From: Axinella damicornis
Lineage: Eukaryota > Porifera > Demospongiae > Axinellida > Axinellidae
Direction: 5' to 3'
Assembly: GCA_963931865.1 (NCBI GenBank)
Contig: OZ007507.1
Span: 3,564,077 to 3,628,076, forward strand
Length of the DNA stretch: 64,000 bases
The translations under genes were made by a program, and so were the position numbers. Numbering within the stretch: the stretch's first letter is position 1; every line of letters starts with the position of its first letter. Shown one piece after another: positions 28,866 through 52,404 of this stretch. The notes beneath the pieces were generated by a model. The model was not told the origin of the DNA, ran no database searches, and was given only the letters and a program-made list of their open reading frames with translations.

Positions 28866-28919
28866 TCATTATGGTTGGCCTGTGTGTATCAATGACATCT
28901 AGAGAGCTCAACCAACATA

Positions 28920-31464: not shown

Positions 31465-31548
31465 CCTCAGTCACAACAACATTGCAGATGAAGGAGCGTA
31501 TGTGCTGGCTAGAGCATTGCAAGTGAACCAGAGCCTTCAGGAGCTACA
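31465..31548 (+). CDS. LRR exon 6
   Basis: 84 nt, phase 2, acceptor TTCTGCAG. It encodes LSHNNIADEG, then AYVLARALQVNQSLQEL, a good RI-type LRR. It is identical to 51210-51293. Confidence 0.85.
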
Positions 31549-31936
31549 GTGAGTCCTGGAGCAAGCCTGAGTGAGGTCCACTGGGAGATGAGTTACCATG
31601 CCCATCCATGGACCATCCACAGATGGCACCTTGCCTGCTCCCCTCTGTCAGAGTATCTGTAGATGCCACAGTTACTATGTCAGTCATCTTTGTAGGAAAG
31701 CATGGCTGTTTGTACCCCCAGCCTCACCCCACCAGATGAAACCCAGGCCGCTCTCTAGCTATTAGTATGTGTGTAGGTAGCAAATCACTCCTAGTTGCTA
31801 GTTCCCCATCTTATACCATCATTTCATCACAATCGTGGAAGTGGTATTGATTCACATTGGCTACATGCACGTGTGTACTGTGGTGTTCCTTGTGGTGCGG
31901 TGTTTGGAGAGATTCTTGTTCCCTGACTCTCTACAG

Positions 31937-32020
31937 CCTCTATCTGAAATTGATCTCAGACAATGGATGCCGTGTACTGACTGCAGCTGTGCGACTTGAC
32001 CAGAGACTGCAGAGGCTAGT
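31937..32020 (+). CDS. LRR exon 7, divergent from its duplicate
   Basis: 84 nt, phase 2. It encodes LYLKLISDNG, then CRVLTAAVRLDQRLQRL. The conserved LRR asparagine is replaced (LYLK instead of LxxN). Its counterpart at 51676 differs at 11 of 26 consecutive bases in the variable half and is the same elsewhere. The polypyrimidine tract also differs by a 2-bp CT unit. Confidence 0.8.
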
Positions 32021-32666
32021 GTGAGTCCAGCCATTAATAGTACCAGTGCAGTACTTGTACAGAATGTGATACCTAAGCTATTATGTGCTAGTTTTTGATG
32101 CACTTCCATGAGCCAAAGTTTTGACATTGTTTACAGTTGTACTGCATTTGCAAGTTGAACAGACATGTCTCACATTCCAGAACAATATAGAGTGCCATGA
32201 CAGGTCAGTTACATCCTGACACCGTCGCAGGCAATCAAATCCACGGTGCTGCATGCGGATATCAGGATGTAACTATTACTTGCTTATCGTGTATTATGTT
32301 GGCACTAAGGCTTTGCATATAATTATTGTGTGTGTGCTCAATGATTCGTGGATGAATCCCACCTGGAAACTGACTTAGTGCAACATGAATTGCATCATAA
32401 CCACTTCAGTGCATTAGCCCTTCAGGGCAATGCCCTGAAGTGGCCATCATCATAGACTCGGTAGAGTCTATATGTAGGGATACGACGTACACGCAATATA
32501 TGCTAATACAAAAAAATCTCTCCAAATCTCAGAAACGGTACACTTATAAGCCTTTATAACCACATACCGTTCATCTTCGAGTGTTTTCATGACCAACAAG
32601 ACTCCTCGCGTCGCGAAAGTACCACACCAGGCACTCGCAAAACGGGCAAATTGTTTTTCTTTCTTT

Positions 32667-33180
32667 CTTTCCGAGGGGCAACCGCACTCCTGGTAGCCGT
32701 TGCAACGCCGCGATTGCCTCGCCGTAGCGCAAGCTAAGTATTGCAATTCGTTCCAATTAACGCACATGCCACGTGGCGATCGCGAGCAATGGCGACCAAA
32801 AGGAAGACAAGACATTATTACAGTACTCACAACTTAGCCAGCACGGTGAGTTTCGGCATGTAAGCGTCAGTGAACGACAGCGATCACGGCCGTGTGGTCA
32901 GAATGTTCGTGTGCCTTTCCTAAGAACGGTACTGCCACCGGAAGTCGATGGAGCGCTCGAGCAATGGCGGCCAACGGCGAGACAAAAGCGCTCATATCTC
33001 CACCAGCAAGGTGAGTTTCAGCACCAAAATTGTACGGTGAGGACAGTGCGTGATAGCGATCACGATGGTGTAGTCAGAATCTTTGCAGGCCATTCGTAAG
33101 TAGTCAAACGTTAATTATTTATTTATTTATTTAGGTTAGATTATTTATTTATTTACGCGGCACAATTTTTCCTATACCAG
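32667..33180 (+). mobile_element. CTCCTGGTAG-family repeat, plus orientation
   Basis: It starts CGAGGGGCAACCGCACTCC and ends near TACCAGGAGTGTAAT. Two internal units each have CAATGGCGRCC, then a GTGAGTTT donor-like site (near 32847 and 33010). ATTT simple repeats lie at about 33113-33155. Confidence 0.65.
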
Positions 33181-33831
33181 GAGTGTAATTTCTTCTTCTT
33201 CTTCTTCAGACAACTTAGCTCAACGTTGCCTCAATCTGTCATGATGGTTTTCGCATGAAACAGCAGCATTTTCAACCGAGTAGTGCAACGACCCATCTCT
33301 TTTTCGCTACCTCCAAGTCTTCACCAGGCGGCTGCAGCTGCCCACTCAATAACTATGGCTTCGTTTGTCACGCCATTTTCACGTTTGTACGCATGCGCAT
33401 CTACTTAGCAACGAACGTAATTATTACTCAAGATTGCTGAATTAGAAACAGTGGGGAAGATGCGTTGACCGTTGTGTTGTCAAACAAACGAGGCTGAGGT
33501 TAGTCCCTGTACGCATGATTTAGCTATACTGCTACCTATACTGTATGCTGTGAGCAGGGTGAATGCCTATCTCAACACCATATGAATGTCCCTAGCTACT
33601 ATAAACTGCCTATGCCATGGTCTTCAGACAGGGAGAACGTAGTGGCTTTGTTACAGTTGACTTGAAATGCCCGGGCCTGATTCTTCAGCCAATGCTGGAA
33701 GTGTAATACCTGAGTAATATTGTCCATATACCAAGGCAAGGACACCTACTGCCCAGGTGCCTGTGAGGTCACTGACTTCTGTAGCAAACTTCAGCTCAAA
33801 CATGCGCCTGCTGCCCCAAAAAATGACATAA

Positions 33832-34105
33832 ACAAGTAATAAAAAACATTTGAAAATGTAGCAGGATGTAGGGATACCAGAACGGCAAAAAGTAAGGAAA
33901 CAAGAGGGATGATCGAACATAACAGTGAAGTATACAATCACCCCTACATATCTTTTTTCATTGTACATGTATATATGGAAGAAGATCTCTGTAGGGGTGG
34001 TTGTATACTTCACTGTTATGTTCGATCATCCCTCTTGTTTCCTTACTTTTTGCCGTTCTGGTATCCCTACATCCTGCTACATTTTAAAATGTTTTTTATT
34101 ACTTG
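33832..34105. repeat. Terminal palindrome (arms ~110-120 bp)
   Basis: The left arm begins CAAGTAATAAAAAAC and the right arm ends GTTTTTTATTACTTG. The arms match over GTAGGGATACCAGAACGGC and GGGATGATCGAACATAACAG. The centre lies near 33970. A solo right arm exists at 28759-28865. Confidence 0.75.
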
Positions 34106-34237
34106 TATACATGTAACTCTTAACTACTCAATGCTGATGCTTCACTGCCAGTTACATCAAGTGATAGCTGTAAGTTGTTTACTGATGGTTGTCATGGTGA
34201 AGATTACTTGAACTACCTCTTCTCTCACATTCTTTAG

Positions 34238-34321
34238 CTTTGAGCCGAGCAAGACCTCAGTCAAAGGAGCTACTTATCCGGCTAGTCCTTTGCAAGTGAA
34301 GCAGAGGCTTTATGAGTTAGA
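34238..34321 (+). CDS. LRR exon 8 (divergent)
   Basis: 84 nt, phase 2, acceptor ATTCTTTAG. It encodes FEPSKTSVKG, then ATYPASPLQVKQRLYEL. Leucine positions are poorly kept, so it may be relaxing, but it has no stop and its splice sites are intact. It is identical to 52321-52404. Confidence 0.7.
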
Positions 34322-34873
34322 GTGAGTCCAGCCATCAATGGCAGATCCATGGCTGAGTCATTCAGTTTGTCCAAATTACGTTCAGCAAGTGCTTAAGGTT
34401 ACGGGATGCTCATGCGTGCGCCGTGCGGAATGTATTGCAAATGTATACTTAATTTTTCTACCAAAAATCTCTAGTGCGAAGAGCGTGAGCAACTTAATTC
34501 TGGTGGTGGAGGTGCGCTGTCACAAGGTGCAGGGCATGATGGAACCTTTTTACGGATACGCTGTATAGCCGTGCAAAAACGAGCAGTTCAGTTCACCAAA
34601 AAGCCGTATTAAATTTTACTGCTTTCCTTGAGCGAGACTGCAGATAAATTTGCCAAGGATTATGCTATCAAAAAAAAGCTTCCATCCCATGGTCGTGCCC
34701 TGCACTTTAGCGTACCTCGACCGCCAGAATCAAGTTACTCATGCTCTTCGTACTAGAGATAACCAGGTTAATCACATGTGAACTGCCATGAGAGCACCGA
34801 TTACAATGTTAGTATCAGAGATGATCCCAAGATCACCCAGTGTGCATCGTTTCCTTTCCTCTGACATCTGCAG
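34322..34873 (+). other. Intron between LRR exons 8 and 9, with a foldback sequence
   Basis: About 34470-34545 (GTGCGAAGAGCGTGAGCAAC, AAGGTGCAGGGCATGATGG) returns inverted at about 34690-34757, a foldback element with ~70-bp arms. The open frame inside it is a consequence of the repeat. Confidence 0.55.
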
Positions 34874-34957
34874 CCTCCGTCACAGCTTGATCTCAGATCT
34901 AGCTGCCTGCATGCTGGCTGGAGCTCTGAGAGTGAACCAGACACTTCAGAAACTAGA
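34874..34957 (+). CDS. LRR exon 9
   Basis: 84 nt, phase 2, acceptor ATCTGCAG. It encodes LRHSLISDLA, then ACMLAGALRVNQTLQKL. It is identical to 52957-53040. Confidence 0.8.
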
Positions 34958-35401
34958 GTGAGTCTGGCAATTCATGTTCTACTTCTTAACCAACAACCGC
35001 TTATTGTTGGTCATGTGTGAACTGTAGACCCCTCTAACTCCAGTCGAATGTCATACAGAAGTATATAACCATCCACACTTAATTTTTGCACAGTGTATGT
35101 GAAGCAAACCCTTTGTAGTATGGCATTTGCTCTATAAATTCTGCATCTATGCACAAAACATCCTATGTCTGTTTTGAGGTGTATGTTGGGGACGGAGCAA
35201 CCAATCACTTTGACATTAGCAGTGAGATCAAGGCATGTATCAGTGACACCTCAAATATGGGATGTGCCAAGTTTTTTTAAGTGGTCATAATTATTAAAAC
35301 TTAGCATCGTGCATAATTGATCATCTTATACTGTATCTCAGTAGTACGGAGAAAATGTAGGCCAAAGAGTTTTGAAAGCACCAGTGTTTATCATTCTGCA
35401 G
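34958..35401 (+). other. Intron between LRR exons 9 and 10
   Basis: This is a plain intron with some intron-unit similarity (GAGCAACCAATCACTTT). It shows no gene or element with clear ends. Confidence 0.5.
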
Positions 35402-35485
35402 CCTTGGAAGAAACACAATCTCCAGTGAAGGAGCCTCTGCACTTGCTGGAGCTCTGCGAGTGAACAAGAGCCTTCAGACACTAAA
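35402..35485 (+). CDS. LRR exon 10
   Basis: 84 nt, phase 2, acceptor CATTCTGCAG. It encodes LGRNTISSEG, then ASALAGALRVNKSLQTL. It is identical to 53485-53568. Confidence 0.85.
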
Positions 35486-37674
35486 GTGAGTCCAGACGTT
35501 CATGTGCTAATTCCATAACACACCTGATAGCGTGTACTGATCACACAAAATTTGTTGTAATTGTGCATAGTCTGCGTGAAATCATACCCTTTGTATCTGA
35601 GTATTGGCTGTATTTGTCTCCACAAGCACTTAATTAGCGTTGTTAGAGCAGAGAGAATGAAATGTGGAACTGTGGTGTGAGACTGAGCGACTGGCATATG
35701 CAGTCAATTGGAACTTGACAGGCTGAAGTAGACACTCAAATGGTGTCACATACACAATCTAGCACACTATACACTCAGCAGAAGATACATGGGCAGCTGA
35801 ACAATGTCTCATTACTGCAGCTGTGAGTATAGCTACTAATAAAAGTCACTACATGATTCCCATTTCTGCTGCTGAAGTGTTTGGGTCTTGAGTATACACT
35901 TCCCCATCGCTCAAGTCATTGGTGAACAGATGGCATGGGCAGATGAAATTAGTAGCCCCCTTTGCTGTAGCCATTGAAGAAGTAGGTCCAGTGGACTTTA
36001 CAAAATCTAGAAGACATGTTACAAATTGTCCGTGTGTATCAGCATGCTTTGCACACGTGCTTAGTCCATATAGTGACCGCGGCATTTATTCGAGAGCGGC
36101 CTTTATTTCACTCAATTGTGCAGCGTTTATTTGAGGGCGACGTCTGTTTGTGGAAATATGGTACGCCTAACAGTGAATGAGCACTTATGTATAAACAAGC
36201 TGTGCTTAATGCGCGACTAAGGTACTACATGTTCAGCGTTGGCTGAAGAATCACTGACCCATGTATCTCATACCCTTAAGTTGACATCTTTCGATTTTCG
36301 CCCGAAGCAACAGCATTTACACTGAGCAGCTGCACGACTCTGTCAAAGTGTGCTTGAAACTACCCACTCAAGAACTGGCTTTATCTGCAGTAATATCATG
36401 CGTTATTGATGTAACCAATGGTTATCGCCATCTTTGAGGAAGAGCGGATGGGGCATTCACCCTTCATCAGAGAGCTCGATGTAGGACATGTGCTTGCAGT
36501 GGCACCATGTCCTGCATATACTGTGAACAGAGAACTTCCTCCTCACTCAGGCCGCAGCAGGGAAAGTACCGTTTCTTATCTACCACTGCACTGATTTCCT
36601 CATAGTTAAACGTCTCACAATTTTACGTGCTGCTTCCGCCCTGAATATACGTAGTTGTAGAAGCCACAAAGTTGTGTTGTTTGAGTGGCAGTCCTTTTTT
36701 GCCTGTAAAGAGAGGGGGCACAGTAACACCTGAGACTGTTCGTGAGAGTGTAGAAGCTAGACAGCGGCCGGCTCCTATACTTCCGGAGGGTTTGGAGGTC
36801 GAGTAATCGTTGCTCAAACTGTGGCTAGGCTTGCGCTTCCGCTCGCCCACAATGTTCAACATTGGACTAGTAATCCAGCAAGCTGACCACCCAGTTACAG
36901 GACCACACTACACTGTAGCCACCACAATCTAGGCTGGAAGGGGCCCTCATCCTTTCACTTCTGAATGAGAGTTTGTATAACACCTGTGTATTAATGTGTT
37001 GGGGTCAACTGGGCAGTGCTAATGGCTTCTGTCAGGAGTCCGCTTCAGTTTACTCGCGAAATCGCAGTAGGCGTATAAATACGCTGTTCGCGCTGAGCGG
37101 ACATTTTGACAGGCGTATCAATACGCCCATTGCGGTCAAAGAGTTAAGCTACATTATTCGAGGGGCAACCGCACTCCTGGTAGCCGCGTTGCAACCGGTT
37201 GCAACTCGCTGGACGCGCAACCTAAGTATCGCAGCTCATTCCAATTAACGCACATGTCACACGAGGACCATGCTCAGCCGATCGAGCCAGCAATGGCGTC
37301 CAAAGGGAAGACAAGAGCTTATTACAGCACTCACAACTTTGCCAGCACGGTGAGTTTTGGCATGTAAGCGTCAGTGAACGTTAGCGATCACAGCTGTGTG
37401 ATCAGAATCTTTGTGGGGCCTTCGTAGGACTGTACTCGCAACCAACGTTGAAGAGAGTGATTGAGCAATGGCGGCCGACGACACAACAAAAGCGCTTGTA
37501 TCTCCACCACCAAGTTGAGTTTCAGCACAATTATTATGTGGTTGTTTCACTGCATCATAGCGATCACGGCTGTGTAGTCAGAATCTTAGTAGGCCATTCC
37601 GAAATAGTCAAACGTTTATTATTTAATATTTACACAGCACAATTTTCCCCTACCAGGAGTGTAACATTCTTCAG
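35486..37674 (+). other. Intron after LRR exon 10
   Basis: It contains a repeat edge with GCGGCATTTATTCGAGAGCG at about 36080-36230 and an inverted pair GGCGTATAAATACGC / GGCGTATCAATACGC at 37071-37127. A CTCCTGGTAG-family repeat (37159-37664) follows. About 36240-36960 is unrecognised. Confidence 0.5.
37159..37664 (+). mobile_element. CTCCTGGTAG-family repeat, plus orientation
   Basis: It is bounded by CGAGGGGCAACCGCACTCC and CCTACCAGGAGTGTAA. It has the two CAATGGCG ... GTGAGTTT / TTGAGTTT units. It is duplicated with the block at 55242-55748. Confidence 0.65.
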
Positions 37675-37700
37675 CATATCAGGAAACGACATCTCAGATG
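37675..37700 (+). pseudogene. Truncated LRR exon (chimeric)
   Basis: It starts with a normal acceptor (ATTCTTCAG) and reads ISGNDISD. It then crosses into the intron-unit sequence TGTAGTGAGGGTGGA at the homologous point and meets a stop. It cannot be used as an LRR exon. Confidence 0.65.
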
Positions 37701-38022
37701 TGTAGTGAGGGTGGAACCTTTCTCAATAGTCATTGTATTGTGAAGCGTTACATATGTACATATTAGGTTGCAAACACTGGTCACTACCCAGTTACAATGT
37801 AGAGTGTTCATATGGTTGGCCTGTGTGTATCAATGACATCATCAATTATAGAGAGCTAGCTCAACTGCCCTGGAATATACAGTGGTGTGGGAATTGGATC
37901 TGAGAATTAGTCATCCACTTCCATAACCTACATTTCTTTCGATACTTACTACTGAGATACTGTATCAGATGCTGTTCGCTATGCAGTTTGTCAGTTTTTA
38001 AGCTACATTATTCATTCCTCAG

Positions 38023-38106
38023 CATCTCAGAAAACAAGATCTCAGATGAAGGAACATCTGCACTTGCTGGAGCTATGCGAGTGAACCAGAGCCTTCAGAC
38101 ACTAAA
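38023..38106 (+). CDS. LRR exon 11
   Basis: 84 nt, phase 2. It encodes ISENKISDEG, then TSALAGAMRVNQSLQTL. It is identical to 56107-56190 and 57371-57454. Confidence 0.85.
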
Positions 38107-38270
38107 GTGAGTCCAGACATTCATGTCCTAGTTCTTAAGAGTTGTGTACTGAGAATGTCATGCTTGAATTGCCTAAGGTTGCCATGAGTGATCAGAGCCG
38201 GTTGAACATTGTAGTGAGGGTGGAGCCTTTCTCAATAGTCATTGTATGTGAAGTGTTACATATATACATA

Positions 38271-38879
38271 TTCCGCACATTTTAGGAATTTGTGCGATGT
38301 CGAGATTGCACTGCGCATTCTCAGAATCCGGAAATTGCGTGCCAATCTTGAGATTGCCCACTAAATTGCACAAAGGTCTTGTGCAATCTCGAGATCGCGA
38401 TCTTGAGATTTCGTGTTCAGAATCTGCAAACTTCATGAGCGTTTTGTCTTCTAGTTGGCTGCCGCTTGTCGTGCTCATTGCTGTCTTTGGCAGAATGACA
38501 GTACATTTCACATGAAAGATCGACTGACCAAGCCGTCGTCCACTGTCACTTACCGTGGGCCTGGGATGAAGTTGTAAGCGCTGTAATAATGGCTGCCTTG
38601 CTCTCTTCAACTTGACTCACCTAAGCCAGTACAGTACTAGTAGCCTCATTCAGACCTTCTCACCCCAGCGTTTGTTGCTTGCAGTACTAATAGCTGGGGT
38701 GAACTGCGAGCGACAAACACTGGGGCGAGAAGGCCTGGGCACGAGGCTACCATTCCAGTCACAATCTCGAGATTGTGCATGTGTATTTTTGTGCTATCTT
38801 GAGATTGCGTACTTATGCTCGGATTCCGAGAATGCGTAGCGCAATCTCGAGATTGCGCAAATTCCTAAAATGCGCGGAA
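38271..38879. mobile_element. CTCGAG-palindrome-rich element with 60-bp inverted ends
   Basis: The left end TTCCGCACATTTTAGGAATT and right end (inverted TTCCGCGCATTTTAGGAATT) continue for about 60 bp. The flanks TATACATA and CATACATA suggest an 8-bp duplication. The interior repeats GCAATCTCGAGATTGC-like palindromes at about 38300, 38386, 38765 and 38843. A TAGCCTC hairpin (38643-38752) is nested within. No transposase is seen. Confidence 0.6.
38643..38752. mobile_element. TAGCCTC-family hairpin nested in the CTCGAG element
   Basis: The left end TAGCCTCATTCAGACCTTCTC and its right-hand inverse (GAGAAGGCCTGGGCACGAGGC) frame CACCCCAGCGTTTGT and its inverse. No clear 9-bp duplication is kept. 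Confidence 0.55.
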
Positions 38880-39134
38880 CATACATATTGGCACTAGTCA
38901 GTACCCAGTTGCAATATAGGGTGTTGATATGGCTGGCCTGTGTGTGTCAATGACATCATCAGTTATAGAGAGCTCAACCCAACATATTGCACTGGAATAT
39001 ACAGTGGTGTGGGAATCAGATCTGAAAATTAGTCATCCACTTCCATAACCCATTCTTTCGATACCTTACTACTGAGATACAGTATCAGATGCTGTTTGCC
39101 ATTCAGTTTGTCAGCTATATGATTCATTCTTCAG

Positions 39135-39218
39135 CATCTCAGGAAACACAATCTCAGATGAAGGAGCCTCTGCACTCGCTGTAGCTCTGCAAGTGAACCA
39201 GAGCCTTCAGACACTAAA
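39135..39218 (+). CDS. LRR exon 12
   Basis: 84 nt, phase 2. It encodes ISGNTISDEG, then ASALAVALQVNQSLQTL. Acceptor ATTCTTCAG, donor AA|GTGAGT. Confidence 0.85.
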
Positions 39219-41711
39219 GTGAGTCCAGACATTCATGTCCTAGTTCTTAAGAGTGTGTACTGAGAATTCAGTGACAGTGATGAGTATAACTCATGATGAA
39301 TTGGCTGTTTACGCACAGTCTGTGTAAAGACAACCCCTTTGTAATTTGCTCCTTGATTGCTACAGCTCACTAAATGCAAAATGCAAAATGCAAAGTATAT
39401 CCTGCACCTGTTTCAAACTGCATCTTGGGATCTGAGCAACCGAAATTTGCCCAGCAGTGTTATGTTCATAGGGTGCAGGGTCTTTGACGATTACTACCAC
39501 AGGATATTCCATGGCTTGTAGGTGTGTACACGATATACGACTTCAGATACCTGTGGTATAATGTGTATATACTGTACCAGAGGAGGTTGGACACATTTTC
39601 AGCGCACATGACTATGCACTGCACTCGAGCGGCATGTTTTTCATTCCTAACCTCAACAGCCTAATCCCACGTCAACATATGGCCTGGAACCGAAAGTAAA
39701 CAACATAAAGGTGAAGCTACAGTTGGGGAGTTTGAAAGGCATAGGGGAGTGCCTTGAAGACACTTCAGGTTCAGTTGGAGTACCAGGAGTGCCTTGTAGC
39801 ACTGGCTTTTCTGCCGTCCCACATGGCCGATCCTTCAAGAGGCCATACAGCCTAGATGATCCAGTGGTTGAATGGCGTTGACGGCATATTTGGAATACTG
39901 CCTAGCAGTTCATAGAAACACTCACAAACGTACCTGAGAGTATGCGGGAGTCGAGAAGCAAGTCGCTGGAAATATTCCGATTTCGTCATCTTCTTTCTTT
40001 CTTCTTCTAGCATAGCTGGCTAACAAAAGCATTTCTTGAGCTAGTTAACAACATTGCTTTTGTCATAGTAGCTCCTTTCGTCCCTTTTGACTACATACTG
40101 GAAAGAACGGCACTTCTGGCTAGCTATGATTCCGTGAATTGCTAGCACAAAACCATTTTGATGCAACAGGAGGTCACGCGTGCCAAATGCACATGCGCAG
40201 TTCACACACAAACGCACATTGCTTTATTTTTGCTGGTGATGGTTGCGTTTCGGGTGCTTACTGATCAGCTGAATCGTTGTGAATCCATCATCTGGTGCCT
40301 CACTACCGCTGCAAGGAATTTCTACCAACCTGTTCTTGTCTGGATCTGTTGTGAATAGTCGACTATGCCATCATGGGGCGTGGCTTTCCTTTCACAACGC
40401 AGCTGCAGACCAGAACTACGTAGACTGTTAGGTTGTAGTTTTCCATTTCACGCATGTGACCCTACATGACTGTGTAGCTCGCTCTCGATCTCTGATATGA
40501 TGAAAGTGAATGCCCCACCCCCTCCTCCACAAAGACAATAATCAAGAAATGAAGCAACATCAATAATTATGAAACAGAATAAAGCATCAAAGCCTGTTGC
40601 CCAGCTGAAGATCCAGGTCTGTCACTGCCATCATGAGAGACTTTCCTTTCATGACATGATGATGAAGTTAGTAGCTAGCTACGCTGTAACAAGATCTTAA
40701 AATCTGACGTCAGGGCATACATCCAGTAGCTACCCCCGCTCCCTTACGTTGTTGTTGCACCTACCCCCGCACCCTTACGTTGTTGTTGCACCAAGAATTA
40801 TGCCTTTTGAGAGGCACTCCCTTACGTTGTTGTTGCACCAAGAATTATGCCTTTTGAGAGGCACTCCAGCACGCAACTCACCAGGAGTCGAGTTGCGTGG
40901 ATTATAGGCAAGTGCGGCTGAACAATAGCTTCTTTGATCTCAATCTCCCCATAACCGTGATCATAAGCTAGTACAGATCATATCAGCATCCACCATAATT
41001 CAGGGCATTATATTATTAATCACAACACAAGCAAGTAACAACGGTGATACCCAGAACAGTAGGTTCCTCACCACATCCATCAAGGCAGAGCTCTCCTTTC
41101 CTCACATGGTGATGAGCTATAGATTTTTCAATCTAAATAATTATGTCTCACCTACCATTCTAGTTTTACGCATTTCATGCGCTCTAAAAACCTCACAAAC
41201 TAGAAACGAAAATTAAAAGGGATTTAGTGATGCCCATCCCGACTCCTGATAAAGCAGACAAACAAGGAATACCATTAACCAGCCTCAGTCCCATCCCATC
41301 TCTAAATTCTACAATTTTCATTGGGATGAGACTGAGGCTGGTTAATGGCATTCCTTTTTTGTCTGCTTTTTCGGGAGTCGGGATGGGCATCACTGAATCC
41401 TTTTTGTGATTTGTTTCTAGTTGCATAAAGTACGTACCTGCAACCTGAAGTGTTGTGTTGGTGGAGCCTTTCTCAATAGTCAATGTATTGTGAACTGTTA
41501 CATGTATGTACATATTGGGTTACATACACGTACATATTGGGTTACATACACCCAGTAGGATGTGCATGTGGTTGGCTTGTGTGACATCATCAATTCCACT
41601 TCCATAACCTACATTTCTTTCGATTTTCGATACCTTACCACTGACATGCAGTATCAGATGCTCTTTGCCATGCACTTTGTCGGTTTTTAAACTACATTAT
41701 TCATTCCTTAG
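39219..41711 (+). other. Intron between LRR exons 12 and 13
   Basis: The first ~420 bp match the copy-1/copy-2 intron after LRR exon 5. From about 39886 to 41420 it is a relative of the 24364-25777 element. A minus-strand frame at 39653-39838 overlaps unrecognised sequence. A 63-bp unit (CTCCCTTACGTTGTTGTTGC with flank) is repeated at about 40738-40865. Confidence 0.55.
39886..41420 (+). mobile_element. Second Helitron-like copy (5' end not resolved)
   Basis: It shares blocks with 24487-25777 (ATACTGCCTAGCAGTTCA, CATTTCTTGAGCTA, GAATTTCTACCAACCTGTTC, ACATCCAGTAGCTACCCCCG). It ends with a palindrome (about 41198-41420) whose last bases are CTAG before a T, the same 3' rule. The 5' TCA-hairpin is not visible, so the left part is truncated or replaced. 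Confidence 0.55.
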
Positions 41712-41795
41712 CATCTCAGCAAACATGATCTCAGGTGAAGGAGCCTCTGCACTCGCTGGAGCTCTGCAAGTGAACCGGAGCCTTCAGACACTAGA
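41712..41795 (+). CDS. LRR exon 13
   Basis: 84 nt, phase 2, acceptor TTCCTTAG. It encodes ISANMISGEG, then ASALAGALQVNRSLQTL. Confidence 0.85.
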
Positions 41796-42574
41796 GTGAG
41801 TCCAGACATTCATATCCTAGTTGTTAAGAGTTGTGTACTGAGAATTCAGTGACAGTGATGAGCATAAGTCATGTCAAGTGATAGCATATTCCCAGGTGTA
41901 GATGCAACTATAATGAATTGGCTGTTTAATTAGGCATTGGCTCCTTAATTGCTACAGCTCACTTAAGATCGTGGACTAGTCTTTGGCGCATATGCGCAGA
42001 GCGGCGCGCACTAAGTAGAATACAAGCCTGAAGCACTAACTAACACATGGAGGCGGCCTCACACAAGCTACTAACAATTTTAAACCACAGCATAAAATCT
42101 GACAAGTCCAAAACAACCACAACTCATGAGTACCACTCTCGTAGAATGCGGAAACGTATAGTTTAATGGGACAGCTGCTTGGAACCAGAGCAGGACGCTC
42201 GAATACAAGCAAGAATCAACTTCAACGACACATTTTTGCCCACAAATGGCTCTGTACTGCCACTGTGTTCAGCGGTCAGACAAAAACTATACGTTTCCGC
42301 AAAGTACAGTTGCTGGACATCCAGGATCCCTCTGGATTGGTGTCCTTCCGCCAGTCAAACTCGGCTGTGGTTCAAATAACTTTTGCCCGAACAACATCCT
42401 GAGACTTCGCCCACAAAGCTTACAACGACACCGTGGCACGCACTGGCTGCCTCTACACTTTCCATGATACTTCCACAAAATGTCAATAGGTTCACGAAAA
42501 TTGACAGTAGAGCCGGAAAACAATACTCGCGCGTACCACACTAATTGAATTGATATGCGACTAGCCCGCGACCT

Positions 42575-43250
42575 TATTACACTCCTGGTAGGGGAAAAAT
42601 TGTGCCGCGTAATGTAATGTATTCTAATGTATTCTAATGTATTCGAGGGGCGACCGCACTCCTGGTAGCCGCGGTTAAACGGTAGCACAAGTGAAGTGTG
42701 ACAGTTCGTTCCAATTATCACACATCACGTGAGTACCATGATAGCTATATATAGGGAAGATCAGAGAGTGCTGTCAAGTACCGAATAAAACCATTCATAG
42801 CCGCGTTGCAACCCCGGTTGCGACTCGCCGTAGCTAGTGCAAGCTAAGTATTGCAATTCGTTCCAATTATTAACGCACATGCCTACCATGCTCAGTCGAT
42901 CGGGAGCAATGGCGACCAAAAGGAAGACAAGACATTATTACAGCACTCACAATTTAGCCAGCACGGTGAGTTTCGGCATGTAAGCGTCAGTGAACAACAG
43001 CGATCACAGCCGTGTGGTCAGAATCTTTGTGTGCCTTTCCTAAGAACGGTACTGCCACCGGAAGTCAATGGAGCGCTCGAGCAATGGCGGCCAACGGCAA
43101 GACAAAAGCGCTCATATCTCCACCACCAAGGTGAGTTTCAGCACTAAAATCCTACGTTTGGTCAGTACATGGTAGCGATCACGATCATCGCGGATGGTAT
43201 AGTCAGACCCGTTGTAGGGCATTCGTAAATAGTCACCGCACTCCTGGTAG
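42575..43250 (+). mobile_element. CTCCTGGTAG-family repeats, plus orientation (nested or tandem)
   Basis: A terminal ACTCCTGGTAGGGGAAAA end at 42580-42605 is followed by GAGGGGCGACCGCACTCCTG at 42644. A full two-unit body runs to about 43250 (CAATGGCGACC ... GTGAGTTTC at about 42907-42975; CAATGGCGGCC ... GTGAGTTTC at about 43082-43140). Confidence 0.6.
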
Positions 43251-43472
43251 CCGATGCATCTCACCGGCAAGGCAAGCTGACCCTTCAGAATGGTACTCCG
43301 GTATTACTTTCGCCCCGAGCAGACTCTGATTGCATCCACCAGCACGTACTTACAGCTCCAAGGTAAGCTCGGATCGTCTCAGTTAGTGCGCACATGTAGC
43401 TACGTGGCTGTCTCATTCCCAGCGGATCCGGAACGAAGAAAAAAAAATCCACCCACACAAGGAGGCCAAAAG

Positions 43473-43502
43473 TTAGGGTTAGGGTTAGGGTTAGGGTTAG
43501 GG
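43473..43502 (+). repeat. Interstitial telomeric repeat, (TTAGGG)5
   Basis: Five exact TTAGGG units lie in order, flanked by non-telomeric sequence between two CTCCTGGTAG-family copies. TTAGGG is the ancestral metazoan telomere repeat, so this supports an animal origin. Confidence 0.95.
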
Positions 43503-43670
43503 TCATAACTCCACCACAAAGATGAGTTTCAGCACAATTATTTTGATTTTGTGTCAGTCAAAAATTAGAATGATGATGGTGTAGTCAGAATCTCTCCATG
43601 TCCTCCACTGTGCTCAGAAGTTTTTCAATTTTTGGAAAGTTTTAATTCCCTACCAGTAGTGTAACTAAAC

Positions 43671-44912
43671 TATTACACTCCTGGTATAGGAAAAATTGTG
43701 CCGTGTAATGTAATATAATCTAAATAATAAACGTTCGACTACTTTGGAGTGGCCTACAAAGATTCTGACTACACCGTCGTGATCGCTACCATGTAGTGAC
43801 ACAAAATCAACATAATTGTGCTGAAACTCACCTTGGTGGTGGAGATATGAGCGCTTTTGTCTCGCCGTCGGCCGCCATTGCTCGAGCGCTCTCTTCGACT
43901 TCCGGTGGCAGTACCGTTCTTAGGAAAGGCACACAAAGATTCTGACCACACGGCCGTGATCGCTGTCGTTCACTGACGCTTACATGCCGAAACTCACCGT
44001 GCTGGCTAAGTTGTGAGTGCTGTAATAATGTCTTGTCTTCCTTTCGGTCGCCATTGCCCGCGATCGACTGAGCGTGGTTGCCACGTGGTATGTGCGTTAA
44101 TTGGAACGTATTGCAATACTTGTACGGCAGGTTGCAACGCGGCTACTTTATAAATGGTACTCGGTGAGAGCACTCTAAATTATTTCTGATCTTCTCTGTA
44201 TATAGCTATCATGGTACTCAGGTGATGAGTGATAATTGGAACGAACTGTCACACTTAGCTTGTGCTACCGTTTAACCGCAGCTACCAGGAGTGCGGTTGC
44301 CCCTCGATCTAAATAAATAATAAACGTTTGACTACTTCGGAATGGCCTACAAAGATTCTGACTACACCGACGTGATCGCTATGATGCAGTGACACAAAAT
44401 CAAAATAATTGTGCTGAAACTCACCTTGGTGGTCGAGATATGAACGCTTTTGTCTCGCCGTTGGCCGCCATTGCTCCAGCGCTCTCTTCGACTTCCGGTG
44501 GCAGTACCGTTCTTAGGAAAGGCACACGAAGATTCTGACCACACGGCCATGATCGCTGTCGTTCACTGACGCTTACATGCCGAAACTCACCGTGCTGGTG
44601 AAGTTGTGAGTGCTGTAATAATGTCTTGTCTTTCTTTTGGTCGCCATTGCTCGCGATCGACTGAGCGTGGTTGCCACGAGGCATGTGCGTTAATTGGAAC
44701 GTACTGCAATACTTAGCTTGTGCTATGGCAGGTTGCAACGCGGCTACTTTATGAATGGTACTTGAGAGCACTCTAAATAATTTCTGATCTTCCCTGTATA
44801 TATATAGCTATCATGGTACTCACGTGATGTGTGATAATTGGAACGAACTGTCACACTTAGCTTGTGCTACCGTTTAACCGCAGCTACCAGGAGTGCGGTT
44901 GTCCCTCGATGC
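43671..44912 (-). mobile_element. Two tandem CTCCTGGTAG-family repeats, minus orientation
   Basis: The copies at about 43671-44312 and 44313-44912 are close relatives of each other. Each ends with CAGGAGTGCGGTTGCCCCTC-type sequence. On the minus strand each has two ATGGCG ... GTGAGTTTC units. They face the plus copies at 42575-43250, giving a large inverted arrangement around the TTAGGG run. Confidence 0.6.
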
Positions 44913-45286
44913 AAAATGTAAAATGCTAAATATACGTATCCTGCACCTGTTTCAAACTGCATCTTGGGAACTGAGCAACCAATCACTTTGAATTTGCCTG
45001 GCAGTGAGATCAAAGAATTCTGATATCACATTTCAAAATTTAATGTTTCAGGGTGTGGGATATTCCATCGGCATTATAGGCCCCACCTATTTTCAAGTTA
45101 GTGTTAGTAGGTGCCAATCTGGGGTCAGTGAGAGGGAGTGGATTTGTGGTCAAAACTCTCTCATAGTGTAGGTAGAACCTTGGAGAGGACGCAAATTTTC
45201 CTTTAGCAGAGGACCTCAACATTGAGTTTTGGGCGTTATCAAGCTATGACGTTCCATGTACAGTAATAGCTTATTACACCGTGCAC

Positions 45287-45690
45287 CCCAGCAGGGGTAA
45301 AGCAATGCCTCTGTGTCTGTGTGTCTGTCTGTCAGCAAAAAATATTGAAAACTGCTTCAAGCAGGTTAGCTAAGGCGTTTACAGATGTCGTTCTCAATGC
45401 AAACAATGAACATAGTCATATTGGGACGTTTCTGTACCTGATACAAGTCAATTAAGGCAGTTATTATTTCAGCTATTTTGGTTTCTTGGCTCCACCCCTT
45501 TCAAAATTGCACATGCATGACCATCCACACAGTGGCATGCGTTGTTTAGTGTCGTCGTACTGTTAGTCTCGATACCAGACTCTCACGAACGGTGGTACTG
45601 TCACTTTTGACAAAGTTAACCATTGTACTCAGGGTTTAACTGTGAACATGAGAGGTGAAGGACGTGTCTTGTAGTTTTTACGGAGGATTT
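45287..45690 (+). repeat. Interspersed repeat shared with 60.8-61.6 kb
   Basis: CAGCAGGGGTAAAGCAATGCC to ACTGCTTCAAGCAGGTTAGC is found inverted at 60825-60960. GGGACGTTTCTGTACCTG onwards is found direct at 61322-61560. This is a dispersed repeat; function unknown. Confidence 0.55.
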
Positions 45691-46230
45691 ACTCAGTGAT
45701 ATCCGACGACTTGATTGATTCTTTTGCCAGCGCACAGAATTGGGTTCTTCAGCCATTGGCGATTCCAGCGATATGTATGCTTCGTTCAGTTGGGTGTGTG
45801 GGTGTTACCCTCTGGGTAATAGCAGACCAGGGATTGCCTGAAGTTTCCATCAGGGATGAGAAGCAGTTGAACACATTGTAGACCTGCAACCTGAAGTGTA
45901 GTGAGGGTGGAGCCTTTTTCTGTAGTGTAAAGTGTTGTTGTTGAGCAGGAAGTGAGGCAACTAATCGTGCAGCGTGGAGGTCGAATCAGGGCTAGTGTAT
46001 ATACATACATTTGTCCTGTAATGCCTAGGAATGCAATTATTGTGGTTACACGTTGGGCTCCCATGCGTGTATATATACAATGCACATCAGTTACTTCGTT
46101 GAATCAGTTACTTTGTTGGGCTGGGAATGGGATCTGAGAATTAGTCATCCACTTCCATAACCTACATTTCCCTTACTACTGAGATACTGTATCAGATGCT
46201 ATTTGCCATGCACTTTAGCAGTTTTTAAAC

Positions 46231-46727
46231 CCATAGATCGGGAAATTTAGCGTAAAATAAATTTTTCCTGTTAAATTTTTGCATTGTTTTATTTTCGTCG
46301 CTCGAGCACACCGATGAAAATTAAACCACGCCATTCACGTGGTACGCGTACGCGTGCGTGTTCCCGGGACCAGATACCGTGTCACCATTGGAGAGGAGCT
46401 GGAGTGTCAGCGTGAGCGAGGGAATGTAGCAGACACCCATGCCGTATCACTGGTAGAGAGTACCACACCTGTCTCTCTCGGTCCGTGGTTACAACTGCCT
46501 TCACAAGTTTGCTTCCGCTGCTTCCATGATCGCGCACTTGGGCTGGTAAGCTCAGTGATCTTGGAAACAACATCGACAGGTTTCAGGTAGCGCAGCAGAG
46601 CCATACTTGTACTTCGATTCAACACTCAAATGAAAACTCATGCGTGAAGTCAGAATCACTTCAAAAAATGTTCGTGATTTTAATTTTCGTCGTTACACAG
46701 TATCGGCAAAAATTTCGTGATCTACGG
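46231..46727 (+). mobile_element. Element with CCRTAGATC ends carrying a HIRAN-like fragment
   Basis: The ends CCATAGATCGGGAAATTT and, inverted, CCGTAGATCACGAAATTT are imperfect inverted repeats. Removing the element restores the intron consensus TTTTTAAAC-TACATTATTC. Inside lies the same gene fragment as at 11316-11585 (TIGEELECQRERGNVADTHA type). It is non-autonomous. Confidence 0.55.
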
Positions 46728-46746
46728 TACATTATTCTTTCCTCAG

Positions 46747-46830
46747 CATCTCAAGTAACAACATCTCAAACAAAGGAGCCTCTGCACTTGCTGGAGCTCT
46801 GCGAGTGAACCAGAGCCTTCAGATACTAGA
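46747..46830 (+). CDS. LRR exon 14
   Basis: 84 nt, phase 2, acceptor TTTCCTCAG. It encodes ISSNNISNKG, then ASALAGALRVNQSLQIL. Confidence 0.85.
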
Positions 46831-47144
46831 GTGAGTCCAGACATTCATGTCCTAGTTCTTAAGAGTTGTGTACTGAGAATTCAGTGACAGTGATGAGCAT
46901 AACTCAAGTGATAGCATATTCCCGGGTGTAGATGCAACTATAATGAATTGGCTGTTTACCCACAATCTGTGTGAATCCTCTATATGTCCGTTCATAAGAC
47001 ATCGCTTGTGTTCTTTTGTACATTCAATGTCCTGCCTGTTTCCCCAATGTGGGGTGCAGCCGGATCAGCCAAACCCAGTCTGCCCTCCACAGGAAGGGTG
47101 GGAATGGGAGGTGGGTGGGTGGGTGTTACCCTCTGGGTAATTGG

Positions 47145-48411
47145 GGCGAGCCTGAGCGAGCCCCACATAGTCGTGCTCTTCAGGATGTCCGTCCGTCCGT
47201 CCAGTTGGTGTCTGTCCGATTTAGCGTATGACTGTATATCCAAGTGGAAAATCGTAATGTTGCGCCGCCCACACGACAGTACCGAGTAGAGCCTGCTACG
47301 CTTTACGCCGGTGCTACAAACTACGTAGCTACTACAGACTTGCAGAGGTCAGCTGGAGGGAGAGATTCTCTCGGCAACTTGGGGTACCGTATTTATGCTA
47401 ATAAAACGTATTTATGCTAATAAACCGGTGCATCTAATCTAGCAGTAGAAATTCAATTCCTGGAATTTCCACTAATCCAATTAAGCAGTAGCTCAGGACA
47501 CTAATTATTCCAATGTACGATACCAGGAAATGTACTTATCCAAACAATGACAACAGGAGTTCCAAGTACACATTTACAAAATACACTATTCATAAAAATA
47601 CACTATTCATAGTCAGTCCAAATGCAGTGCTGGCTGGCAGTTGATGCCTATTTCCTGGAATACAACAGTCCTTGGTCACAAACGAGTTCTCTCGAAATTC
47701 AGCGGGCTGGTTGATGATGCCCATTTCTTGGAATTACTATAGCCACGCCCCCAAATGCAGCGTGTGGCATGGCAGTGGGTGTCCATTTCCTGGAATAGTG
47801 TAGTCACAACAGTCACAAACACTGAATGCCAGCACGTGGCAGTGGCATGATGTCCGATGTTCCTTCAATAACTGTCACAAACACTCGAAATGCAGTACGT
47901 GGGATGGCAGTTCGATGCCCATTTCCTGGAATAACAGCAGTCACAAACGATTTCTCTCCAAACGTAGTGCGACAATTTCTATCTATTACAACGGTCCATC
48001 CAATCTAGCGATACAAATTCATTTCCTGGAATTTCTATGATTCCAATCCTACGGTAGTGAATTTTGTTTTTAATTAGATAAATACGGTACTCCTCTCAGG
48101 TACAGTGTAGCCTCGTTCCCAGTCCCACGCCCAGCTTTTCGTTGCTTGCCGTACGTACGTCGCTTGCAGTAGGGCAAGCAACGAAAAGCTGGGCGTGGGA
48201 CTGGGAACGAGGCTACCACGAACTTGAAACTGCAGCTGCAGACCATCAATGATGAACGACACTAATTGGCTACATCGCAGGCCCCACACCCAGCTTCCCT
48301 TATTAGCTGTGCCGCACCGTCCGGGCCTCCCAGCCTACAATCACTCAGAGAATGATTATTGGCATGCAGTACGTCAGTTTGTCAGGCGAGCCCCACAATG
48401 CCCTGCATTCT
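47145..48411. mobile_element. Composite insertion with CGAGCCCCACA motifs near both ends
   Basis: The left edge has GGGGCGAGCCTGAGCGAGCC and CCACATAG; the right edge has GGCGAGCCCCACAATG. Inside are the interspersed repeat also seen at 8040-8222 / 9545-9650 (here about 47420-47750, without the foldback insertion) with tandem TTTCCTGGAATA blocks, and a TAGCCTCG hairpin (48108-48215). Confidence 0.5.
48108..48215. mobile_element. TAGCCTCG-family near-perfect hairpin
   Basis: Arms of about 44 bp (TAGCCTCGTTCCCAGTCCC, ACGCCCAGCTTTTCGTTGC) are perfectly inverted around a short loop with GTACGTACGT. No 9-bp duplication is evident at the flanks. Confidence 0.7.
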
Positions 48412-48672
48412 CCTAGTAGCAGACCAGGGATTGTACACATCTGTCATGCCTAAAGTTTCCGTTAGTAATCAGAGAGTGTTGAATGCACTGTAGACCTGCA
48501 ACCTGAAGTGTAGTGAGGGTGGAGCCTTTCTCAGTAGTCATTGTATTGTGAAGTGTTACATACGTATGTACATATTGGGTTGCATACACTAGTCAGTACC
48601 CAGTTACAATGTAGGGTGTTCATATGGTTGGCCTGTGTGTATCAATGACATCTAGAGAGCTCAACCAACATA

Positions 48673-49577
48673 CCGTAGTCGCGCGTTATTAGGCACATGC
48701 GCCTATAACTCCACAGGAAGGAAATATGCGCCTATAAGCGAGATGCGCCTAATAACACATATAACAAGTGAGTCTTTAAAAGACTTGATGTGTCTCGGCA
48801 TGACTTGGTATCAGCTAGAATCATGCAGAGGACATGGCAGCTGTGTAACCCTTTATCCTGTTAGCTATGAGACTTTCAGCTTAAGTGAGCGTCAATATCC
48901 TTGGAGGTTCTGTATGAGCAATGGGTGGGTCAGGGTGAGGTGGGAATGTTCACCCAAAGGGTGAAAGCAGTATGGTCGTGTCTGGGCTTGATGTTTAGTC
49001 TGCCAGGTGGGCCGTTTTAATTCATAGATAACACCTTGGCCAATTCTTTCAGCACTTATCTAGCTAGCTAGAGCTGAGTGAGTTAGTAATGTATGCACGT
49101 GAGTGCAGCATACTGTGTAGCTATGGATGAGTGAGTATTCATTGTCCTGAATTAAGTACTAGCAGCAGTCTTGGTAAGAGGATTCATGAGCAGCCATGCA
49201 AACCCATAATCACTTGACGATCTACTTGCAGGCTATAAATACGTTTGACACCCTATTAAGAGGGTAGAGCAGCACTAGCGCGGGCGCATTGCGAAAAGCG
49301 ACGTATGTACCACGTACGTATGTACGTACCACGTACGTACGTACCTACGCATCCAGCACTGTGTCTTGGCACTTCGGTGCCGAGACAAAAATAATGACAT
49401 TCCTTGAATAGGAAGCGTGCTTCAATTCGAATATAGCTGTTTTGCACTCCGAAGGATTGAAAATGGCAGAGTTTCTGGAAGAAGACTGCAGCGCTTACCT
49501 GGGACGAGAGTTGAACCTGCGCCTAACATCGAATGTGCGCCTATAAGTGATATGCACCTAATAACGCGCGACTACGG
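48673..49577. mobile_element. Tc1/mariner-like MITE, copy 2
   Basis: The same element as 28920-29824, duplicated with the block. Here both ends read CCGTAGTCGCGCGTTATTAG exactly inverted. TA flanks are at 48671-48672 and 49578-49579. Confidence 0.7.
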
Positions 49578-49737
49578 TACTGCACTGGAATATACAGTGG
49601 TGTGGGAATTGGATCTCAGAATTAGGTATCCACTTCCATAACCTACATTTCTTTCGATACTTACTACTGAGATACTGTATCAGATGCTGTTTGCCATGCA
49701 GTTTGTCAGTTTTTAAGCTACATTATTTATTCCTCAG

Positions 49738-49812
49738 CATCTCAGAAAACATGATCTCAGGTGAAGGACTTGCTGGAGCTCTGCAAGTGAACCGGAGCCT
49801 TCAGACACTGAA
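49738..49812 (+). CDS. LRR exon 15, 75 nt (three codons deleted)
   Basis: Counterpart of LRR exon 5. It encodes ISENMISGEG, then LAGALQVNRSLQTL: the ASA codons are missing and K became M. The donor is GTGGGT instead of GTGAGT. The frame is kept, but the repeat would be 25 residues. It may be weakly spliced or unused. Confidence 0.7.
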
Positions 49813-51209
49813 GTGGGTTCAGACATTCATATCCTAGTTCTTAAGAGTTGTGTACTGAGAATTCAGTGACAGTGATGAGCATAACTCAAGTGATAGCATA
49901 GTCCCGGGTGTAGATGCAACTATAATGAATTGTTTACGCACAATCTGAGGGAAGACACCCCTTTGCCATTAGGCATTTGGCTCCTTGCAATTGATTGCTA
50001 TAGCTCACTAAACGCAAAATGTAAAATGCCAATTTTGTATCCTGCACCTGTTTCAAACTGTATATTGGGAACTGAGCAACCAATCACTTTCAAATTTGCC
50101 CGGCAGTGTTATGTTCATAGGGTGCAGGGTCTTTGACGATTACTACCTCGTGATATTCCATGGCTTGTAGGTGTGTACACGATATATGACTTCAGATACC
50201 TGTGGTGCACAAAGGTACAATGTGTATGTATTGTACCAGAGGAGGTTGGACACATTTTCAGCACAACATGACTGTGCACTGCGCTCAAATTGAAATAATT
50301 GCACGTTTTCCGTTCCTAACCTCAACCGCCTCCTTCCCACATCAACACGACCTGGGATCGATGGTAAGCAACAAGAATCTCGACATCCTGTCTTGTACTG
50401 TCCGTCCAAGGGATGGATGTCAGAGCATAATTCACAAGGCAGATGACCGATACTATTCGTAGTTCGAAATACCGGGGACATATCGACACGAAACAGGTAT
50501 TATAACGACCCCCATGTGTCTACCACCTGACCAGATCTCTCAGCCCCCCCCCCCCGTACTTTTTATTGGAACGGCCTGGGAACGAGGCTAACCTTACATC
50601 TCATGCACCAAAAGATGGTAGCAGAAATGAACATTATACTGTCTAAACTCAGTCAACTCAGTTGAATGGCTCATATTACACAGATCTCTGTTCAGCCGTT
50701 GAACTAAAGAGTCATCAAATTCTAATGGTCTGCTTCTGACCTGTGAACCACATGCAGCTACGTACGTACATAGCACTACAGGTTTTGCGTGAGCAGAATG
50801 GGTGAGACAGGGGGAGGTAGGTGGGTGCACCCAAATGGTGCAAACAGCATGGCCAAGTCTGGGGTTGGCTGTAGAAATGCCTTGGTTGGCACTGGGAGGG
50901 CTATTTCTGTCCTTTTTGGCAATAAATGGACTTAGAAACAAGCCGCAATTACCATCCTCAGTCCCGTCCCATTAATAGAATGTAGAATTTAGGGATGGGG
51001 TGGGTCTGATGATGGGTAATGGCATTTCCTTTTGTTTCTTTACTTTTTCAAGAGGTGCAGGAATCCTTTCTCATTTTCCAGAGATTTCTTTAAGTACCAA
51101 ATTAGTCTCATTTCCAGGCCTACCCCATGTTTGTATTATTGTCACAAGCTGTGTACAATTTTGATGTTGGACTTACTTAAACTGCATTTCTTCTTTTGAC
51201 ATTCTGCAG
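49813..51209 (+). other. Intron between LRR exons 15 and 16
   Basis: Copy of 30069-31464. The C run is longer here (12-13 C near 50546). It holds the same palindrome relic and TAGCCTCG end. No gene is seen. Confidence 0.5.
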
Positions 51210-51293
51210 CCTCAGTCACAACAACATTGCAGATGAAGGAGCGTATGTGCTGGCTAGAGCATTGCAAGTGAACCAGAGCCTTCAGGAGCTACA
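51210..51293 (+). CDS. LRR exon 16
   Basis: 84 nt, phase 2. LSHNNIADEG; identical to LRR exon 6. Confidence 0.85.
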
Positions 51294-51675
51294 GTGAGTC
51301 CTGGAGCAAGCCTGAGTGAGGTCCACTGGGAGATGAGTTACCATGCCCATCCATGGACCATCCACAGATGGCACCTTGCCTGCTCCCCTCTGTCAGAGTA
51401 TCTGTAGATGCCACAGTTACTATGTCAGTCATCTTTGTAGGAAAGCATGGCTGTTTGTACCCCCAGCCTCACCCCACCAGATGAAACCCAGGCCGCTCTC
51501 TAGCTATTAGTATGTGTGTAGGTAGCAAATCACTCCTAGTTGCTAGTTCCCCATCTTATACCATCATTTCATCACAATCGTGGAAGTGGTATTGATTCAC
51601 ATTGGCTGCACATGTGTACTGTGGTGTTCCTTGTGGTGCGGTGTTTGGAGAGATTCTTGTTCCCTGACTCTACAG

Positions 51676-51759
51676 CCTCTATTCGAATAAGGTCACAAGC
51701 AAAGGATCCCGTGTACTGACTGCAGCTGTGCGACTTGACCAGAGACTGCAGAGGCTAGT
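51676..51759 (+). CDS. LRR exon 17, divergent from its duplicate
   Basis: 84 nt, phase 2. It encodes LYSNKVTSKG, then SRVLTAAVRLDQRLQRL. Unlike LRR exon 7 it keeps the LxxN asparagine. Eight of ten codons in the variable half are changed relative to copy 1, while the second half and flanks are nearly the same. Confidence 0.85.
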
Positions 51760-52320
51760 GTGAGTCCAGCCATTAATAGTACCAGTGCAGTACTTGTACA
51801 GAATGTTATACCTAAGCTATTATGTGCTAGTTTTTGATGCACTTCCATGAGCCAAAGTTTTGACATTGTTTACAGTTGTACTGCATTTGCAAGTTGAACA
51901 GACATGTCTCACATTCCAGAACAATATAGAGTGCCATGACAGGTCAGTTACATCCTGACACCGTCGCAGGCAATCAAATCCACGGTGCTGCATGCGGATA
52001 TCAGGATGTAACTATTACTTGCTTATCGTGTATTATGTTGGCACTAAGGCTTTGCATATAATTATTGTGTGTGTGCTCAATGATTCGTGGATGAATCCCA
52101 CCTGGAAACTGACTTAGTGCAACATGAATTGCATCATAACCACTTCAGTGCATTAGCCCTTCAGGGCAATGCACTGAAGTGGCCATCATATACATGTAAC
52201 TCTTAACTACTCAATGCTGATGCTTCACTGCCAGTTACATCAAGTGATAGCTGTAAGTTGTTTACTGATGGTTGTCATGGTGAAGATTACTTGAACTACC
52301 TCTTCTCTCACATTCTTTAG

Positions 52321-52404
52321 CTTTGAGCCGAGCAAGACCTCAGTCAAAGGAGCTACTTATCCGGCTAGTCCTTTGCAAGTGAAGCAGAGGCTTTATGAGT
52401 TAGA
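52321..52404 (+). CDS. LRR exon 18 (divergent)
   Basis: 84 nt, phase 2. FEPSKTSVKG; identical to LRR exon 8. Confidence 0.7.

Follow-up and report, generated by a model that had tools for sequence, protein, structure and literature searches.

Known systems and the present locus

In opsin duplicates, a divergence peak was described at functionally important codons of exon 5, with the copies alike in the flanking introns (PMC3924837, with Teshima and Innan cited there). In the NBS-LRR genes of the coffee SH3 locus, conversion among clustered copies was found together with positive selection at the solvent-exposed x of the xxLxLxx motif of the leucine-rich repeat (LRR) (PMC3113787), and in the zebrafish NLR-B30.2 family conversion with limited tract length was likewise accompanied by positive selection (PMC4852459). 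For sponges, Death-NACHT-LRR genes (the NLRD class) of Dysidea avara were treated in terms of gene numbers, categories and NACHT phylogeny (PMC12909245), and a word search of the main text of that paper returned neither conversion, exon nor tandem. These statements, and the comparisons drawn from them below, refer to the portions of the four papers used here. In this study, we analyzed a 64,000-nt stretch of Axinella damicornis DNA (contig OZ007507.1; hereafter the window), which carries an NLR-type gene, apparently encoding an immune sensor, with a Death domain, a NACHT domain and then a long array of single-LRR exons. Within this array, LRR exons 7 and 17, which lie in duplicated blocks, are separated by a short island of divergence; this island, which encodes a portion of the probable recognition surface, is the subject of the present report.

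The island resembles the opsin-type divergence peak under conversion in having homogenised flanks and a peak in one exon. Unlike in the opsins, the units here are exons within one gene, the peak comprises 26 bases of one LRR, and a functional difference between the copies is only presumed. The variable positions resemble those of the plant LRR receptors, whereas the coffee SH3 copies are whole genes of the plant CNL family and the present locus is of animal origin, with a NACHT domain and each LRR in a separate exon. In the zebrafish family the variable module is B30.2 and conversion runs between genes, whereas here the variation resides in the LRRs. The Dysidea avara NLRD genes and the window locus share the same domain order. 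A literature search, which was not exhaustive, found no account of an exon-level divergence island in a sponge NLR; the island is nevertheless of a known type of diversification, and its novelty is modest.

Extent and age of the divergence island

The assembly consists of 226 Mb in 120 contigs, and the window sits in a contig of 20.8 Mb (C3), 208 kb of which were covered by our LRR exon survey, so that numbers in the window frame run past the window end at 64000. The features concerned are collected in Table 1.

Table 1. Positions of the gene parts, duplicated blocks and divergent segments in the window
Feature	Position	Strand	Basis or remark
Death-domain open frame, N-terminal part of the NLR-type gene	16641..18224	+	527 aa; Pfam Death PF00531, E 2.2e-13
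NACHT-domain open frame	19536..21083	+	515 aa; Pfam NACHT PF05729, E 4.6e-14
LRR exon array, 29 exons inside the window	22048..63704	+	nhmmer profile scan
Block A, left part, exons 5-7	28866..32454	+	98.7% to 48620-52192
LRR exon 5, second divergence island	29985..30068	+	compared with 49738-49812 and 63621-63704
Minimal divergent segment, A versus B	31862..31969	+	3 intron events + 11 exon substitutions
LRR exon 7, block A version, common to block C	31937..32020	+	sequence, profile scan
Block A, right part, exons 8-11	34106..38160	+	99.9% to 52189-56243
Block B, exons 15-21	48620..56243	+	alignment to block A
LRR exon 15	49738..49812	+	in-frame deletion of 9 nt as compared with exon 5
LRR exon 17, block B version, odd copy	51676..51759	+	sequence, profile scan
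26-base divergent tract in exon 17	51683..51708	+	alignment to exon 7
Block C start, exons 29-35	63512..64000, on to ~70135 beyond the window	+	98.8% to block B, 6644 columns
LRR exon 29	63621..63704	+	8 substitutions relative to exon 5, six at exon positions 9-24

An earlier note on this DNA had reported 11 differences in 26 consecutive bases between exons 7 and 17, and both this count (31944-31969) and the identity of the following 51 exon bases were reproduced; the coordinates, sequences and numbering that it gave for the two exons agreed with our survey. Across the left part of the A-B block (3571 aligned bases), 27 substitutions were counted, namely the 11 in the tract and 16 in the other 3545 bases. 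The chance of such a cluster arising anywhere in the block was bounded at 1.3e-13, and in 5000 random placings the largest cluster within 30 nt comprised 6 events, as compared with the 11 observed. No other cluster of at least four events was present within the A-B block, and the tract thus forms a narrow peak of divergence inside otherwise homogenised duplicates. The blocks are not identical in the intron preceding exon 7, in which a 4-nt indel, one single-nucleotide polymorphism (SNP) and a 2-nt indel lie within 31862-31928. Because these three intron events precede the exon tract, the divergent segment measures at least 108 nt, running from the last part of intron 6 through base 33 of exon 7. 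At the protein level eight codons change (3-9 and 11), as had been stated; only seven of them fall within the ten residues quoted for them, the eighth being a C-to-S change immediately beyond these residues. The neighbouring exon pairs 6/16, 8/18, 9/19 and 10/20 were indeed identical, but exon pair 5/15 (29985/49738) differs. With block C included, exons 6 and 8-10 showed zero differences among the three blocks, and exon 11 carried two changes in C.

Block C carries exon 7 exactly, and therefore exon 17 is the odd copy. Blocks A and C were identical over 1416 nt around exon 7, a stretch in which B differs at a SNP at 32068 and by 14 events in 31862-31969. Furthermore, non-exon events between A and B were unevenly distributed, with 14 in 2326 positions of the left part, which is shared with C, versus 2 in 3716 of the right part (p 8e-5); when the three intron events of the island itself were left out, the left-part count was 11 (p 9e-4). 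As judged from these alignments, the identity of A and C and the uneven event density suggest that exchange between the blocks is ongoing. Separately, a stretch of about 1.65 kb in block A (32454-34106) is absent from B. A part of this A-only stretch (32698-33129) matches 42804-43185 in direct orientation as well as 43711-44066 and 44310-44732 in reversed orientation, and since it recurs at three other places, the stretch is probably a dispersed repeat.

To place the two versions in time, we used three outgroups: a diverged copy D on C3 (window-frame 89863), the corresponding exon E of a paralogue on contig C5, and, by back-translation, homologue P0096. The last derives from a 1292-base contig of the Joint Genome Institute (JGI) and was the sole homologue returned when proteins were searched with the frame antisense to exon 7; the same search with the antisense frame over exon 5 returned no homologue, a search of viral contigs gave no match, and alleles from other individuals, looked for by homologue search, were not found. 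In exon nucleotides 1-34, A and B differed at 11 positions, A and D at 9, and B and D at 8, while the other 688 aligned columns held 2 A-B and 227 A-D differences (Fisher test of tract versus flank, 2.7e-12). Over the exon part, the distance between A and B is thus as large as that from either of them to D, whose introns differ by about 38%.

The outgroups also assigned many of the single differences. Sites 8, 9, 17 and 20 were changed in B, with D and E both matching A. In turn, site 14 was changed in A, all three outgroups fitting B, as were sites 15 and 33, at which E and P0096 fit B and D fits neither; site 23 was changed in A according to D and E, with P0096 fitting both versions. Sites 13, 24 and 28 gave ambiguous or conflicting signals. 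Since derived changes occur in both versions, the tract is much older than its flanks, and neither version arose from the other by recent mutation; two old versions, an A/C type and a B type, exist in the exon part. The property of the divergence peak that the versions are older than the surrounding copy was therefore found here as well. In the intron before exon 7, D carries the B base at the SNP, and D and E both lack the two extra bases of A, so that the A/C type is mildly favoured as the changed one there; around the 4-nt indel, D aligns poorly and has a gap of 5 nt.

These results bear on two simpler accounts. The first is that, following duplication of the blocks, positive selection by itself drove a recent point-mutation burst in B; this would agree with the fact that nearly all differences alter amino acids. 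The substitution level of the flanks, however, leads one to expect only about 0.1 differences in 26 bases; moreover, at least three of the 11 differences (14, 15 and 33), and probably four, arose in A/C rather than in B, and the two indels and the SNP of the adjoining intron divide the copies in the same manner. We consider this burst quite improbable. An error of assembly or consensus, for example a mixture of two haplotypes in block B, deserves somewhat more weight, as near-identical repeats are hard to assemble, only a single assembly was at hand, and the tract could represent an exon 7 allele that was assigned to the wrong copy. Nevertheless, the open frame and splice borders are intact, the outgroups support both versions as real relatives, and the blocks also differ by the 1.65-kb stretch and by other events, all of which makes such an error unlikely.

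Proposed roles of recombination and selection, and the rival explanations

A second divergence island was identified in exon 5 and its copies, exons 15 and 29. In addition to its deletion, exon 15 carries one substitution before the deletion and two at the deletion end relative to exon 5. Exon 28 was tried as a donor of exon 29 and rejected: 60 bases (63640-63699 and 60400-60459) are equal, but they are near the array consensus. In both islands (29898-30008/63535-63644 and 31862-31969/51606-51708), three events lie in the intron just upstream and few follow downstream, a layout as if exchange had begun in the intron and extended into the 5' portion of the exon. The earlier note had named scattered bursts of divergence in the introns of the two blocks as evidence that would speak against its reading. 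Within the A-B block none was seen, as described above, but intron clusters were present in other tandem pairs, namely of 4 events in A2-C2, of 7 and 13 in t1-t2 and of 6 in v1-v2. In the largest of them, which lies close to its alignment end, 13 events fall within 47 nt, and t1-t2 and v1-v2 are older pairs (2.3-2.8% overall). These bursts would be read, from their sequence, as mosaic exchange across the array; and since introns of other, older repeats are affected as well, there is no need to invoke mutation directed at exons. Both the islands and the intron bursts are explained by a recombinational mosaic, but not by a process restricted to exons.

Hypermutation targeted to the LRR face, either AID-like or template-primed as in diversity-generating retroelements, corresponds to the targeted diversification that the earlier note had offered. 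It would account for the sharp edges inside one exon half, for the second island in the same half of exons 5/15/29, and for the island being the only cluster of its kind in the A-B block. Against it, the 11 tract differences comprise 5 transitions and 6 transversions and hence no one-base signature; adenine stands at 3 of the 11 sites in one copy and at 5 in the other, which gives no adenine-only pattern; derived sites occur in both copies; and bursts occur in the introns of other tandem pairs, though these are older pairs and the largest cluster lies near an alignment end. As a mutation process, targeted diversification was therefore not borne out and appears very improbable. A diversity-generating retroelement in particular was discarded, as the changes were not adenine-specific and no near copy of the tracts was found genome-wide, at up to 3 mismatches, beyond A, B and C.

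Template switching on a short inverted repeat could likewise have replaced the segment in one copy, and the A tract is weakly palindromic, with 8/26 mismatches to the reverse complement of a self-overlapping stretch. Within 60-500 nt, however, the longest reverse-complement match to the other copy spanned 6-7 bases, which is less than the mean of 6.6-8.5 obtained for 500 random 42-mers against their own surroundings, and the best full-length match had 12-13/26 mismatches. This mechanism is accordingly the least credible of those considered.

A donor for the tract was sought at several levels. Genome-wide, 33 bases with up to 3 mismatches yielded no donor and no near copy of either tract outside blocks A, B and C. 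Tract halves with up to 2 mismatches yielded nothing genome-wide for the B version, and for the A version three places at 2 mismatches each, all outside both LRR clusters (control hits 0 and 2). In an exhaustive ungapped search of both strands over the 208 kb of C3 and 50 kb of C5, the nearest sequences had 7/26 mismatches for B and 8/26 for A.

Selection was assessed from proportions of nonsynonymous (pN) and synonymous (pS) differences. By Nei-Gojobori counting, 10.5 of the 11 tract differences were nonsynonymous. Between A and B, codons 1-11 gave a pN of 0.41 and a pS of 0.07, with few synonymous sites in the tract, and codons 12-27 held neither kind of difference. For the same codons 1-11, the pN/pS values were 0.32/0.13 (A-D), 0.26/0.19 (B-D), 0.39/0.02 (A-E), 0.38/0.20 (B-E) and 0.35/0.27 (D-E). 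An array-wide count was made over 46 LRR exons, drawn from C3 (32 of 45, excluding the shortened exon 15 and the near-identical copies in the blocks) and from C5 (14 of 15); its rates come from 282 exon pairs with 1-16 differences, which share exons and are thus not independent. Among the 46 exons, codons 3 and 5 showed the top pN, about 3.1 and 3.5 times the mean pS, and codons 6, 10, 17, 21 and 24 were nearly invariant.

The earlier note had assigned the changed codons to the xLxxNx surface of the LRR, which contacts ligand in known LRR proteins. A structure model of homologue P0006, built with 18 aligned proteins, was poor overall (mean predicted local distance difference test score (pLDDT) 49.8; predicted template modelling score (pTM) 0.31), and only its LRR part was used, most of it at a pLDDT of about 62-82. 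In this part, codons 1-7 form the strand-to-helix loop and the helix begins at codon 8. The model would thus place the changed codons in the loop and the first helix turn rather than in the strand, where they may contact a ligand.

Taken together, an old diversified LRR face combined with recombination probably accounts for the island. Parts of the array would have been copied as blocks that continue to exchange sequence; diversifying selection on the variable face of the exon 7/17 LRR would have kept two old versions apart; and recombination would have set one version into an otherwise homogenised block. The route may have been either conversion of a short tract, with a donor copy or allele that the assembly lacks, or homogenisation of the flanks that halted at the selected island, and the effect would be an altered binding range of this LRR. 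If the island is indeed such an old, selected variant, it offers a clean within-gene case, at the scale of a single LRR, of what has been described for duplicated opsins and for resistance genes of plants, and it pinpoints the codons expected to vary among individuals.

Several observations weigh against this explanation by old versions and recombination. Concerning its selective part, array-wide pN and pS of codons 1-11 were about equal (0.19 and 0.20), and other A-D exon pairs were mixed over these codons, with a pN of 0.08 and a pS of 0.30 for 31465/89361 and a pN of 0.25 and a pS of 0.23 for 34874/94082; selection thus appears clear at single codons only. Furthermore, three of the codons altered in the tract (4, 6 and 7) belong to the conserved positions of the array (entropy 1.0, 0.7 and 0.8). 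The strong selection that the earlier note had proposed is therefore supported by the amino-acid excess and by codons 3 and 5 and tempered by the mixed results of other exons; selection is probably the other half of the explanation. Concerning recombination, the intron part is mildly diverged (1 SNP and 2 indels in about 75 nt) versus 42% in the exon part, and since plain conversion from an old paralogue should bring a more divergent intron, strong selection has to be added. Short-tract conversion from another LRR, likewise put forward in the earlier note, agrees with the bounded tract and the deep split, but an identifiable donor LRR exon was not found in the assembly, although the donor may be absent or lost. 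The locus, finally, is seen in one assembly and one haplotype.

As a more speculative extension, it is conceivable, though doubtful, that this single early-animal NLR gene maintains a long store of single-LRR exons, and that recombination exchanges or shields only their 5' halves. If so, the half concerned would carry the variable strand-to-helix loop, the exon border would naturally delimit the exchanged cassettes, and the gene could rebuild its recognition face without new gene copies.

The gene and its LRR exon array

The Death (PF00531) and NACHT (PF05729) scores both passed the cut-off. In the 208 kb, a profile made from 36 exons gave 49 matches with E values of at most 1e-3, of which the partial ones at 37675, 55759, 69652 and 90525 were dropped, leaving 45 exons as the total found; more diverged exons may escape the profile. 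Sixteen of them lie beyond the window, up to window-frame 103755. Each exon is of 84 nt and phase 1, the sole exception being exon 15 (75 nt); AG/GT borders were present in 45/45, and ordered splicing gave 1256 codons with zero stops. Exons 5-11, when spliced, matched Pfam LRR_6 (E 6.9e-26), and ribonuclease inhibitor and NLRP chains were among the best 60 of 75 PDB matches to the LRR part. The LRRs are thus C-terminal and of the ribonuclease-inhibitor type, and the locus shows the Death, NACHT and LRR parts of the NLRD class, which are also listed within one protein in homologue P0006 (702 aa). All 45 LRR exons would presumably belong to this one gene, and an open-frame array of this length raises the question of whether all exons are used together or chosen.

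A genome-wide search gave 193 NACHT candidates, 84 of which were scored and listed. Among these 84, the window NACHT was the only one on C3, and its nearest relative (60% identity) lies on C5, where 15 LRR exon matches, including a shortened one, come after it. The 45 one-phase, stop-free LRR exons behind a single NACHT are far above these 15. Other NACHT clusters among the 84 were seen on C4 (4.25-5.23 Mb), C9 (10.47-10.71 Mb) and C10 (12.4-12.67 Mb).

Inside the LRR array, long open frames that by eye resemble retroelement polymerases were noted at window-frame 73101-74333 and 79311-84033. At 27551-28079, 351 bases are exactly repeated at a shift of 178, and a tandem array with units of about 700 bp and 90-94% identity occupies 2942-5922.

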